Origin: Synechococcus sp. M16.1
GTDB lineage: Bacteria; Cyanobacteriota; Cyanobacteriia; PCC-6307; Cyanobiaceae
DNA length: 64,000 bases
Reading direction: 5' to 3'
Assembly (NCBI RefSeq): GCF_014279895.1
Contig: NZ_CP047954.1
Coordinates: forward strand, 558,001 to 622,000
This document shows, piece after piece, positions 45,052-50,180 of the stretch (position 1 is the stretch's first letter; every line of letters starts with the position of its first letter). A program made the position numbers and the translations under genes. Below the pieces are notes generated by a model, which ran no database searches, was not told where the DNA came from, and saw only the letters and a program-made list of their open reading frames with translations.

Positions 45052-46224
45052 ATGGCCAGCCTGCTCGATCAGCTTTCACAAATGACCGTGGTCGTTGCCG
45101 ACACGGGTGATCTGGAGGCGATCCGCAACTTTACCCCTCGGGATGCCACCACCAACCCGTCGTTGATCCTGGCTGCTGCACAGATTCCGGCCTATCAGAG
45201 CCTGATTGATGAGGCTTTGCGCTCATCGCGCAAGTTGATGGGTAGCGACGCAGCGGTGGAAGACGTGGTGCGGGAAGCGCTCGATGAGATCAGTGTGATC
45301 TTCGGCAAGGAGATTCTCAAGATTGTTCCCCGTCGTGTGTCAACGGAGGTGGATGCTCGCTTGAGTTTTGACACCGACGCCACGATTGAAAAAGGGCGCA
45401 AGCTGATTCGTCTGTACAACGATGCCGGCATCAGCAACGATCGCGTTCTGATCAAAATTGCTTCCACCTGGGAAGGCATCAAAGCCGCCGAGGTGCTGGA
45501 GAAAGAGGGGATTCACTGCAACCTCACCCTCCTGTTTGGTTTCGGTCAGGCCGTTGCCTGTGCCGAAGCCGGCGTCACTCTGATCTCCCCCTTTGTGGGG
45601 CGCATCCTGGATTGGTACAAGGCCGAAACCGGGCGCGACTCCTACCCCGGCCCTGAGGATCCGGGTGTGATTTCGGTGACAAAGATCTTCAACTACTACA
45701 AGACCCACGGCTACGGCACGGAGGTGATGGGGGCGAGCTTCCGCAACATCGATGAGATCACGGAGTTGGCCGGTTGTGATCTGCTCACGATTTCACCGAA
45801 GTTGTTGGATCAGCTCCGTGAGACTGATGCTGTGCTGACCCAGAAATTGGATGCCACCCATCCCACCGATGGCGAAGCCAAGATCCACGTCGATCGCGCC
45901 ACCTTTGATGCACTGATGCAGGACGATCGGATGGCGAGCGACAAACTCACCGAGGGCATTAAAGGCTTCAGCAAAGCCATTGAAACCCTGGAGCATCAAC
46001 TTGCCCATCGTCTGGCTGAACTGGAGGGTGGATCCGCCTTCCGCCACGCCGTTTCCGAGATCTTCATGCTCAACGACATGAACGGCGATGGCTCGATCAC
46101 CCGCGACGAATGGCTCGGAAGTGATGCCATTTTTGATGCCCTCGATCAGGACCACGACGGCCTGATCTCTCAGGAGGACGTGCGCCAAGGCTTTGGCGCA
46201 GCTCTGACTCTGACCTCTGTCTGA
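45052..46224 (+). CDS. tal: Transaldolase fused to a C-terminal EF-hand pair
   Basis: Residues 1-320 form a TalB-type transaldolase: [28 protein letters not shown], the Schiff-base lysine in [12 protein letters not shown] and [13 protein letters not shown]. The enzyme moves dihydroxyacetone units in the pentose-phosphate pathway. The extra about 65 residues contain two calcium-binding loops, [12 protein letters not shown] (342-353) and [12 protein letters not shown] (365-376). Both have Asp/Asn ligands at positions 1, 3 and 5, with Glu or Asp at 12. A calcium-responsive transaldolase is implied but untested. ATG 45052. Confidence 0.95.
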
Positions 46225-46238
46225 GTCGCGCTGGTTCC

Positions 46239-46619
46239 ATGCATGCCCTCGACACCATGCGTGCTTTGGCCAGCAAGGCCGAAGTGATTCATCTCAATCA
46301 GGGTGACGTGCTGTTTCGTGCCGGCGAAACCGGCACCTGCATGTACGGCCTGCTGGAGGGATCGGTGCGGCTCACCTGGATCGATTCAGCAGGCCATGAG
46401 GGACATGAAGACATCCCTGTGGGTCATGTGTTCGGCGCAGGGGCCTTGGTGATGGAGGACCATCAGCGTCTGAGCACCGCCACGGCTACCAGTGATTGCC
46501 GTTTGATTGCCATGAACCGCGACAAGTTCCTGTTTGCGGTTCAGGAGACGCCGATGTTTGCGGTGCAACTCCTCGCATCGATTGATGCCCGTTTGCGGGA
46601 CATCAAGTTGGCCGATTGA
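46239..46619 (+). CDS. Stand-alone cyclic-nucleotide-binding domain protein
   Basis: The 126-residue protein is one cNMP-binding beta-roll: VIHLNQGDVLFRAGETGTCMYGLLEGSVRLTW, then EDIPVGHVFGAGALVMEDHQRLSTATATSDCRLIAM. It lacks the C-terminal helix-turn-helix of Crp/Fnr regulators and is about half their size. The phosphate-binding cassette does not show the usual G-E-x-R-S/A-A pattern, so nucleotide binding is uncertain. It follows tal by 14 bases on the same strand and precedes the PucC remnant. Confidence 0.8.
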   Translation: MHALDTMRALASKAEVIHLNQGDVLFRAGETGTCMYGLLEGSVRLTWIDSAGHEGHEDIPVGHVFGAGALVMEDHQRLSTATATSDCRLIAMNRDKFLFAVQETPMFAVQLLASIDARLRDIKLAD

Positions 46620-46636: not shown

Positions 46637-46662
46637 GATTTTTAAAGCGAAAACGGCATAAT
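46637..46662 (+). promoter_or_regulatory. Possible promoter of the PucC remnant
   Basis: A T/A-rich stretch with CATAAT resembles a -10 box about 25 bases before the PucC reading frame, in otherwise GC-rich DNA. No good -35 box was identified. Confidence 0.3.
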
Positions 46663-46683: not shown

Positions 46684-47503
46684 TTGGTGCACAGCCGTCC
46701 CCTGCGTCTTGCGCTGCAGTTGGGTTTGTTCCAGCTCAGCCTGGGGATCCTCGGCGTCCTGATCCTGGGACTTCTGAATCGTCTGTTGATTCAAGACATT
46801 CAGGTCCCGGCGGTGCTGGCGGCTGTTGCCGTTGGTGGTCACCAGCATGGAGGCCTCCGGCGGTCAGCTGAATGCGCGGCTGATGGTTTTGTTGATCCTG
46901 GTTTTTGTTCGGATCGGCACCGCGATTGCCGCTGGTGGCACGGCGTTTTCAGCCTTGATTGCGGATCGCACCACGGAAGCCGAACGGCCGCGGGTGCTGT
47001 CGGTGGTGTGGGGGATGCGTCTCCTGGGGCTGAGTGGCTTCTGCTTGATTGAGCGTGTCGGCAACATCAGAACGGCCCGGGTGGGTGCGGTGCTGGCTGC
47101 TTTGGCTTTGCTGTTGATGCTTTGGGCCGGTTCTGGCCAGTCCATCCCCCTGTTGCGGACAGCCGTTGGTTTGTTTGGCCTGTCACTGGGGGTGTGCATG
47201 AATGCCTGCCTCACCTTGATGTTCAGCTTTGTGCAGCCCGGACGCACCGGCTTTCTGCTTGGTGTTTGGGGGGCGGGATATGCCTATTCCTGCGGCCTGG
47301 CCACCATCAGTGGAGGCGGGCTGCTCACCTTGCTCAAAGCCGGGAACGGTGGTGATTTGTTTGCTGCCTATAGCGGCGTGTTCGGCCTGCAGATGGTTTG
47401 TTTCCTCGCTGCCGCGTTGATGACGCGCCGTTTGGATGTGGTGGGTTTCCGCAACACGGTGAAAACTCGCTTTGCCGATGTCATGGAAATGGCAGTGGAT
47501 TGA
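46684..47503 (+). pseudogene. Internally deleted PucC-family (chlorophyll-related) transporter
   Basis: PucC/LhaA proteins have about twelve helices and 450 residues. Here the N-terminal helix (LGLFQLSLGILGVLILGLLNRLLIQD, 46684 to about 46845) is in one frame. The sequence then continues in another frame with RIGTAIAAGGTAFSALIADRTTEAERPRVLSVVWGMRLLG, which runs directly into LSGFCLIERVGNIRTARVG and the intact C-terminus (GFRNTVKTRFADVMEMAVD). About 50-60 residues are missing at the first junction, with a frameshift, and about 150 at the second (near 47030). The estimates are from family knowledge. It cannot encode a normal carrier. Confidence 0.8.
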
Positions 47504-47556
47504 AGCTTGGCTGGAGCTCCGGATCCACTAGAACCGGGTTCTTTCCATTGCAGTGA

Positions 47557-49038
47557 ATGGCAGCGCTGCAGATCGTCTGGTTCAAGCGTGATCTGCGCAT
47601 CGTTGATCACCGGCCCTTGGCGGCTGCTGTGGAGCGGGGTGTGGTGCTGCCGCTGTACGTGGTGGAGCCGGAGTTGTGGCGGCAGCCCGATGCCTCCCAG
47701 CGGCAGTGGATGTTTTGCCGGGAGTCGCTGTTGGAGTTGCGCCAGGCCTTAGCGGATCGGGGCCAACCCTTGGTGGTGCGCGCTGGGGATGTGGTGCAGG
47801 TGCTGGAACGGGCCCGGCGTCAGTTCGGCATCGATGGGCTGTGGAGCCATGAGGAAACTGGTAACGGCTGGACGTATCAGCGCGACAAACGCGTTGGCGC
47901 CTGGGCCCGTCGGCACGGCATCGCCTGGACAGAAATCCCGCAGTTCGGGGTGACGCGCCGGATGCGCAGTCGCAATGGCTGGGCCAAGCGCTGGGAAGTT
48001 CAGATGACGGAGCCCATCACACCCGTGCAGGCCGCATTGCAATCGCTGGAGGGCATTGATCCCGGCGTGATCCCGGAGCGCCCCTGTTCAGAACTGCTTT
48101 CGGATGCATGTCCGCAGCGTCAGATCGGAGGGCGTTCGATCGGCCTGGAGGAGCTGAACGACTTTTTGCAGCACCGCGCCCCGCGTTATCAACGGTCGAT
48201 GTCGAGCCCCAACACGGCGTTCACCGGTTGTTCGCGCCTGTCGGCTTATCTCACCTGGGGTTGTCTCTCGATGCGCGAAGTGCTGCAGACCAGCCGCAAC
48301 CACAGCGGCCGCGGCGTCAGCAGCTTTGAATCAAGGCTGCACTGGCATTGCCATTTCATTCAGAAGCTGGAGGATCAGCCGGCGATTGAATTCAGCGATT
48401 TCCATCCGTTCATGCGCGGCATTCGCGCAGCCGATGCCGAGCGCTTGACGGCCTGGAGCGAAGGTCGCACCGGCGTTCCCTTTGTGGATGCCTGCATGCG
48501 CGCCTTGCGGGCCCATGGCTGGATCAACTTCCGCATGCGGGCGATGTTGATGTCTTTTGCCAGCTACAACCTCTGGCTGCCCTGGAGAGACAGTGGTCTG
48601 CATCTGGCTCGTCAGTTTGTGGATTACGAACCGGGTATTCACTGGAGCCAGTGCCAGATGCAGTCGGGCAGCACCTCGATCAACACGATTCGGATCTACA
48701 ACCCGATCAAGCAGGGAATGGATCACGACCCTCAGGGGCTGTTCATCCGTCAGTGGTGCCCTGAACTCAAGGATGTGCCCACGATTCACATCCATGAGCC
48801 CTGGATGCTGGGTGGTGGCATGCCAGCACCAATCGTTGATGTCACCGCATCGATGCAGGATGCCAAAGATCGCATCTGGGAGATTCGCCGATCGGCCGGT
48901 TTTGATCGCCATGCCGATGCGATCCAGCGCAAGCATGGCTCACGTAAGGCGGGATTGAAGCCAACAACGGCTCGACGCCGCCGGCGCAAACCTCAGCAGC
49001 CCGACAACGGCAGCCAGCAGCTCAGTCTTGGTCTTTAG
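47557..49038 (+). CDS. phr: Photolyase/cryptochrome-family flavoprotein
   Basis: The 493-residue protein has an N-terminal photolyase domain ([20 protein letters not shown]) and a C-terminal FAD domain ([78 protein letters not shown]). The flavin loop reads [15 protein letters not shown], where E. coli photolyase has the N378/W382-containing DGDLAANNGGWQW segment, so repair function should not be assumed. The tail is very basic (TTARRRRRK). ATG 47557. The stop overlaps the convergent reductase gene by four bases. Confidence 0.88.
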
Positions 49039-50180
49039 TTGCGCTGCAGCAGCAGCCGCTTGATCACCCTTTGGGCGATGTCGCCATAGCCCATCTCCCC
49101 GGAGAGGATCTGAGCAATTCGCCGTGGTGCGGTGGGCCGCTTGATCCCCAACTGATACCCCACACCGGGGAAGCGATAGAACACCTGGGCAATGCGCCGG
49201 CCCCAGGCCATCGACTCACCCCAGCGCTCCCGCATGCTGCGGCTGTAGCCCCGCAGATCCTTGCTGTCGCCCTTGAGCCATAGGTTCAGATGTCGGGCCG
49301 CCTCGCAGCCACTCATCAGGGCGGGGCGTAGCCCCTCCGCCAGAAAGGGGTCGCAAAGCGATGCAGCATCGCCCACCACCACAATGCCGTCGCCATCAAG
49401 ACGGTGATGGCCGTTCCATACCCGCAGTTGGCCGCGCTGACGGATGCCTGCATCGGCGGCGAAGCCCAGATCCGGCAACAGCTGAGCCAGCACCTGCTCC
49501 GGGTCAGCATCCTGCTTGCCGATGAAGCTGCCCACACCGATGTTCACACCACCGGCGAGGGGAAAGGCCCAGGCGAAGCCCTGTTTCACCAGGCCGAATT
49601 CAAAGCGGGTGCTGCCTTCGTTGAGTTTGCCTTGCCCCTCCAGCCGCACCGACATGGTGGTGGCCATCTGGGGTTGTTTGGGTCCCAGGCCGAGCCGTTG
49701 GGGCCAAGGGGACCCCGAACCATCGGCGATCACCACCGCCTTCCCCTGCCAATGGCGTCCATCGGTTGCCGTGACATGCCAGACGTCGCCATGGCGCCCG
49801 ATGTCATTGACCTCAACGCCTGAAAGGCGTTTTGCCCCAGCCTGAATGGCCTGATCTGAAAGCAGTTGATCGAGCCTTTCGCGGCGCACGATCCAGAACG
49901 GTGCATCGCCGGGCAGCTTGGCGACCACCGGATCCTCCAGGCACCAACTGAAATCCACCTGCCGGATCACCTGCTCCACCGCTGGCTCCAGGGAAAACGG
50001 AAACCACTGCCGCACGGAGGCCGCCATGCCACCGCCGCAGGGTTTGATCCGCAGCTCTGAGTCGCGCTCAAGTATCAAGGCGTCATGGCCCGCTAACGCG
50101 AGATGCACGGCCGCCGCACCGCCAGCGGCCCCGGACCCGACGATCAGGACGTCGTGGGTGCGATCTGCATCGTTGCTCAC
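49035..50180 (-). CDS. Geranylgeranyl-reductase-like FAD oxidoreductase
   Basis: The 381-residue flavoprotein has the FAD Rossmann motif [22 protein letters not shown], the family motif [16 protein letters not shown] and [22 protein letters not shown] near the C-terminus. It belongs to the geranylgeranyl reductase/ChlP superfamily but is shorter than ChlP, so it is likely a paralogue acting on another isoprenoid chain. GTG start at 50180; GTGA overlaps the frr stop, indicating co-translation with frr. Confidence 0.85.

Follow-up and report, generated by a model that had tools for sequence, protein, structure and literature searches.

Rhodobacter LhaA and PucC are described in passages of PMC4949548 as important, but not essential, for assembly of LH1 and LH2, and passages of that paper and of two others (PMC6175206; PMC9066304) report an association of LhaA with bacteriochlorophyll synthase and YidC. 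A literature search conducted mostly at the level of result lists found no report on the function of cyanobacterial PucC-like proteins; relatives of solved structure were sought by sequence and none was found at E ≤ 1, and relatives on viral contigs were looked for and none was confirmed. The locus described here belongs to a genus that we take to be of the marine Synechococcus type, and it holds a damaged PucC-type gene. An intact orthologue from the same genus (genome G010, L006/L034) matches the PUCC profile PF03209 with 226 bits (E = 1.1e-66; cut-off 21) over profile positions 2–396 of 401, while its match to MFS_1, at 30.9 bits, is below that model's cut-off. These scores place the intact protein, of 460 residues and probably some 12 helices, in the bacteriochlorophyll delivery (PUCC) branch of the major facilitator superfamily. 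By analogy with PucC and LhaA, it probably serves as an auxiliary factor in passing chlorophyll to a pigment-protein complex or in assembling one.

A tree of 49 proteins, computed with a long-branch warning, separates group A (genera g1 and g46), whose stem measures 0.88 changes per site with support 100/100, from group C (42–46% identity to the G010 protein) and group B (28–34%). The gene studied here is a member of group A, which in this tree is confined to g1 and g46 and takes in 9/9 proteins from this genus. In the wider family, a group A query matches 152 of the 271 genomes that are at least 90% complete. A group B query matched G231, G233, and Synechococcus WH 5701 (G302), matched 0/10 genomes of the small-genome genus g36, and left Prochlorococcus marinus MIT 9314 (G301) unmatched.

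A pucC remnant with two deletions

The window, by which is meant the whole stretch of 64,000 nucleotides analyzed, covers positions 558001–622000 of the source genome (G000), a single contig of 2,112,236 bp that is 99.99% complete. It was compared with 33 other genomes of the genus, so that the sample comprises 34 genomes, each represented by a single assembly. The order tal, crp, pucC (or its remnant), phr is found in 22 of the 30 genomes fetched at the locus; among the same 30, G007 and G044 have tal, crp, and phr without pucC, crp was not detected at the locus in G006 and G043, and contig ends interrupt the locus in G012, G018, and G011. The geranylgeranyl-reductase-like gene beyond phr was considered as a partner of pucC and set aside, because it adjoins phr in 27 of 29 loci, nine of them with pucC broken or lost, which shows no special link. 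In G015 this reductase-like gene (L088) aligns in two separated pieces only and is possibly damaged too.

Table 1. Features of the locus in window coordinates, and pucC lesions in other genomes of the genus
Feature	Position	Strand	Remarks
tal, transaldolase with C-terminal EF hands	45052..46224	+	PF00923 1.9e-90, EF-hand matches; synteny; conserved neighbor
crp-like, single cyclic-nucleotide-binding domain protein	46239..46619	+	PF00027 4.2e-15; synteny; upstream neighbor
CATAAT, putative -10 of pucC-like gene	46657..46662	+	24 bp before start
N-terminal fragment	46687..46839	+	GTG start; orthologue residues 1 to ~48; translation VHSRPLRLALQLG...; from alignment to relatives
Junction 1	46839..46840	+	152 bp absent, frame shifted
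Middle fragment	46840..47022	+	orthologue residues ~100–163, frame differs from N-terminal fragment; residues 102–174 at 82% identity (tblastn)
Junction 2	47023..47029	+	in-frame loss of 420 bp (140 codons); exact place inside CCTGGGG
C-terminal fragment and original stop codon	47030..47503	+	orthologue residues ~304–460; 92% identity to G010 over 302–460
GGATCCACTAGAA, element upstream of phr	47521..47533	+	conserved core; putative function
phr, photolyase/cryptochrome family protein	47557..49038	+	PF03441 1.4e-58; synteny; conserved downstream neighbor
Geranylgeranyl-reductase-family protein	49035–50180		TIGR02032 above cut-off; ChlP models below cut-offs
G003 pucC			G run lengthened by one G
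G022 pucC			stop and frameshift
G020 pucC			several frameshifts and a stop
G046 pucC			middle mostly gone
G014 pucC			C-terminal stub of ~63 residues
G001 pucC (L206)			C-terminal stub of ~30 residues, next to unrelated genes; phr kept
G007, G044 pucC			gene gone; crp ~20 bp from phr
G008 pucC (L273)			no match

Alignment of DNA and protein, with G010 as the reference, shows that window positions 46687–47503 hold a gene of the pucC family (PF03209) that has suffered two internal deletions. An initial annotation, made from the letters of the window, had proposed a PucC-type gene with two such deletions, one of them shifting the frame, with about 200 residues missing and junctions at about 46845 and 47030; the comparison with full-length homologues that it recommended confirms the deletions, sets the loss at about 191 codons in total, and places the junctions as listed in Table 1. 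In tblastn the remnant aligns to G010 in three collinear pieces (residues 2–58, 102–174, and 302–460), the true homology of the first ending at ~48, and the residues lost are ~49–100 and ~164–303. The deletion at junction 2 comes to 423 bp when G039 is the reference, because that genome carries a private insert of 3 bp. The likely start is the GTG at 46687, which aligns with the starts of the relatives, and not the TTG at 46684; the 225-residue open reading frame at 46826–47503 has as its listed start an out-of-frame TTG within the first fragment, which is not a gene start. The remnant still scores 99.5 bits (2.8e-28) against PF03209, in two stretches at profile positions 71–137 and 260–396.

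Among ten relatives aligned at the DNA level, the sequence missing at junction 1 is present in nine (the exception being G046), and the sequence missing at junction 2, with its flanks, is present in eight (not in G046, nor in G020, where a separate gap lies on the left), indicating deletions in the source genome and not insertions elsewhere. In the closest relatives, G003 and G039, the direct repeat CCTGGG stands at both ends of the segment lost at junction 2. At junction 1 the ends overlap by 2 bp within an imperfect TGG-CA match. The larger deletion may have arisen between the CCTGGG copies by slippage or microhomology-mediated deletion, and both junctions fit such an origin, although in GC-rich DNA a repeat of 6 bp falls short of proving it. 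By hydropathy, the deletions remove or cut stretch 2 (71–106) and stretches 4–7 (151–312) of 11 merged hydrophobic stretches, a loss that would make a complete transporter fold impossible. The single intact frame with about 12 helices that characterizes the family is thus lacking in the window copy.

Dead gene, short protein, or backup copy

The preferred reading, given a probability of about 0.89, is that the remnant is a recent pseudogene of the only pucC-type gene of the genome, inactivated by the 152-bp and 420-bp deletions. Compared with intact orthologues its lesions are disabling, and it is the lesions that indicate a dead gene; the substitutions are silent on loss of constraint. Polarized changes in the source genome number 11 nonsynonymous to 14 synonymous over 267 retained codons (ratio 0.29), against 47:98 (ratio 0.17) pooled from five intact lineages (G048, G045, G010, G009, and G005), and the two do not differ significantly (p = 0.26). 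Pairwise dN/dS of the remnant is 0.17 to G003 and 0.26 to G039, where the neighboring genes provide a yardstick of 0.02–0.04 for pairs of tal and 0.11–0.26 for phr (first 600 bp). The broken gene of G003 likewise has no excess, at 3:8. An earlier count of 9:3 (ratio 1.09), taken as evidence of relaxation, is withdrawn, because it was limited to positions at which all other sequences agree and synonymous changes were lost; this biased count gave p = 0.03 against 39:59 for all codons and 0.11 against 24:29 for the same codons. A substitution pattern so near that of intact genes fits a late loss, and, on the assumption that a dead gene evolves at a ratio of 1, constraint would have been absent for about 14% of the terminal branch, a rough figure. 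The annotation's view that the losses are recent, which it based on conserved ends and retained coding composition, therefore stands: the ends and most of the coding signal are kept, and the substitutions differ little from those of intact genes.

The same observations bear on whether the 225-residue frame encodes a truncated protein that still works and is maintained by selection, a half-size membrane protein for example. The frame stays open, the 26 near-invariant columns left in the remnant are all unchanged, the substitution ratio is indistinguishable from that of intact genes, and the putative -10 element is retained, all of which such a protein would share. However, a low ratio is likewise expected if the deletions are recent, the frame's listed start is spurious as described above, both halves lack some of the hydrophobic stretches, and a form with both deletions occurs in none of the other 33 genomes of the genus. 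The last point also bears on the annotation itself, which would have given way if many strains had carried this same short form. A working short protein is accordingly regarded as very unlikely. Still less credence is given to an error of assembly or sequencing that hides an intact gene: although the species is represented by one assembly only and the substitutions are nearly those of intact genes, the sequence comes from a nearly complete single contig of 2.11 Mb, the deletions are clean and one of them lies on a short repeat, and the same gene is damaged by other lesions in relatives.

Equally remote is the explanation, raised in the initial annotation, that another PucC copy took over. The genome does contain a second PF03209 match, L003, at 33–38 bits, but in a stretch of 331 residues it scores 188 bits with tet_MFS_A_B_C_D (below the equivalog cut-off of 475) and 181 with MFS_1, compared with 38 for PUCC. 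L003 was rejected as a second PucC, since drug-efflux models outscore PUCC and it is a TetA-like MFS transporter; such a match is present also in genomes with an open pucC. A search with the PF03209 profile found no second true PucC in the source genome, and the other PF03209 matches of the genus are below 40 bits. A group B query finds the remnant alone in the source genome and nothing in G007 and G044. Redundancy as the reason for the loss is thus contradicted by a genome search that yields only the TetA-like gene. The case also carries a caution, that a PF03209 match is not the same as a PucC copy and an open frame is not the same as a working gene.

The second half of this caution is illustrated by G039, whose frame (L204) is open and which is possibly a cryptic pseudogene without a frame break. 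Its protein has the change R149W at a position occupied by arginine in 49/49 homologues from the three groups and 12 other families, and it contains an extra residue present in 0/49 homologues. A second near-invariant change, A388S, is common to G039 and the broken gene of G003. Polarized changes in G039 number five nonsynonymous to one synonymous, p = 0.02 against the intact pool, in a comparison that involves few changes and one of several lineages examined. A near-invariant change, Q250E, is found in the open genes of G002, G016, and G047, so that a single change of this kind is not decisive. The -10-like motif of G039 is altered, and the motif is missing also in G041 and G015, which have open genes.

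The motif ATAAT is found near the position of this putative -10 element in 15 of 19 pucC leaders, as judged by eye, and is kept in the source genome. Behind the remnant, ATCCACTAGAA occurs exactly in 17 of 25 phr leaders and with one or two changes in six (including G014), and was not seen in the stretches of G023 and G042 that were compared; it occurs also in the distant G021 and G040, at a different spacing from pucC. The resemblance of positions 47513–47535 (GGAGCTCCGGATCCACTAGAACC) to a cloning polylinker or vector was considered and dismissed, because the core precedes phr in most genomes of the genus; judged by this conservation, the segment is probably a regulatory element of phr, and the GGATCCACTAGAA element may be part of the phr promoter. 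A consensus scan for sigma-70 sites found none for the pucC or phr elements. The 3' end of pucC is retained in the source genome, G001, and G014, with a GGATCCACTAGAA-like element just behind it. If the element does form part of the phr promoter, phr would suffer from any deletion that extends beyond pucC, which might explain why the 3' end survives. In G007 and G044, phr follows crp after ~20 bp, which leaves no room for a GGATCCACTAGAA-like element.

Decay of the gene across the genus

Scored at the locus in the 34 genomes, pucC is open in 17 (G002, G005, G006, G009, G010, G012, G015, G016, G023, G039, G040, G041, G042, G043, G045, G047, and G048, where G012 has uncalled bases and the G043 frame stops ~4 codons short), broken or absent in 10 (the source genome and the nine listed in Table 1), affected by a doubtful lesion in three (frameshifts in G011 and G013, which are drafts 53% and 77% complete, and a stop ~30 codons before the end in G021), and not scorable in four (G004, G017, G018, and G019). 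In G018 a single gene divided between two contigs (residues 6–423 and 424–460, with one TGA in the latter piece) is more likely than a stub. The 19 best genomes comprise nine with an open gene and nine with a broken or lost one, plus G021. The frameshift of G003 is absent from the source genome, and the deletions of the source genome are absent from G003. Two loci show other peculiarities. G008 is 98% complete yet has no match to pucC or to a close photolyase homologue, and a search within 1.5 kb of its tal found no crp; in G001 the stub is fused to unrelated upstream genes and tal lies elsewhere in the genome, indicating that the locus has been rearranged.

On an rpoB tree of 30 genomes, with 15 scored as intact, 13 as broken (including G013, G017, and G021), and two unscored, the broken state requires nine changes, eight of them forced by supported branches; with the 19 best genomes only, six changes are required, or seven with G021 counted as broken. 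These counts are minima and include changes in either direction, loss or gain. The broken state is no more clustered on the rpoB tree than shuffled labels (156 of 500 shuffles were as low). The gene thus seems to be dispensable in this genus and prone to repeated loss. A single pseudogene is ordinary, and the point of interest is the recurrent decay of one gene within a genus, since close relatives with different pucC states lend themselves to comparing how pigment-protein complexes are assembled.

Possible reasons for loss and comparison with known systems

The initial annotation suggested that loss might mark a change in antenna management, a proposal that gains no support from the genes counted. 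Genomes with open pucC carry a third PF00421 (IsiA/Pcb-type) gene in 6/9 cases and those with broken pucC in 6/10, G021 being counted as broken (Fisher p = 1). Phycobilisome genes of PF00502, taken as totals per genome, number 13 in each of 18 good genomes and 14 in the nineteenth, so that their number does not track pucC loss. Genomes with broken pucC are smaller, with a mean of 2.22 versus 2.44 Mb (Mann-Whitney p = 0.02, nine versus nine, sizes partly rounded), although p rises to 0.08 when G021 is counted as broken, and among independent pairs two are for the difference, none against, and four tied. There is thus a weak indication that pucC loss is somewhat commoner in smaller genomes. The simplest account would combine a relaxed need for pucC with some pressure for small genomes.

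A further explanation, compatible with the pseudogene reading, is that the gene is selected against in certain light or nutrient niches and that its losses are convergent. The requirement for at least six to nine changes on the tree, the smaller genomes of strains with a broken gene, and the lack of a match in 10/10 genomes of genus g36 and in Prochlorococcus marinus MIT 9314 would suit such selection. The size difference is nevertheless sensitive to the scoring of G021, the independent pairs stand at two for, none against, and four ties, the broken state is unclustered relative to shuffles, no antenna gene tracked the loss, and an unneeded gene can be lost without selection. Adaptive loss is therefore considered rather unlikely, though by no means negligible. 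Slightly more room, still well short of an even chance, is given to the broader and tentative proposal that group A, a PucC subfamily seen here only in marine Synechococcus genera and probably a chlorophyll-handling assembly factor, is shed in parallel for an ecological reason. If this proposal were true, the strains would form a natural knockout series extending from intact genes through a possible cryptic loss (G039), a frameshift, large deletions, and stubs to clean removal, and comparing strains that differ in pucC could show which complex the cyanobacterial PucC serves.

To our knowledge, marine Synechococcus has neither LH1 nor LH2. Other cyanobacterial PucC-like genes, those of groups B and C and of 12 other families of the class, share near-full-length homology with the intact gene at 28–46% identity. 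The likeness to Rhodobacter PucC and LhaA lies in the near-full-length PF03209 match of the intact cyanobacterial orthologue, a link by family and not by direct alignment, and differs in that the copy in the window is broken. That the Rhodobacter proteins are non-essential, as passages of PMC4949548 describe them, fits a dispensable gene in cyanobacteria. A second comparison is with the reduced genomes of marine picocyanobacteria and their loss of genes. Parts of PMC7522525 describe how genes were gained and lost along branches of these genera; the terms "pucC" and "pseudogen" are absent from the main text of that paper. The likeness is in the setting of loss along branches, whereas the present locus differs in showing a single gene that decays in parallel in several lineages and is seen at many different stages.
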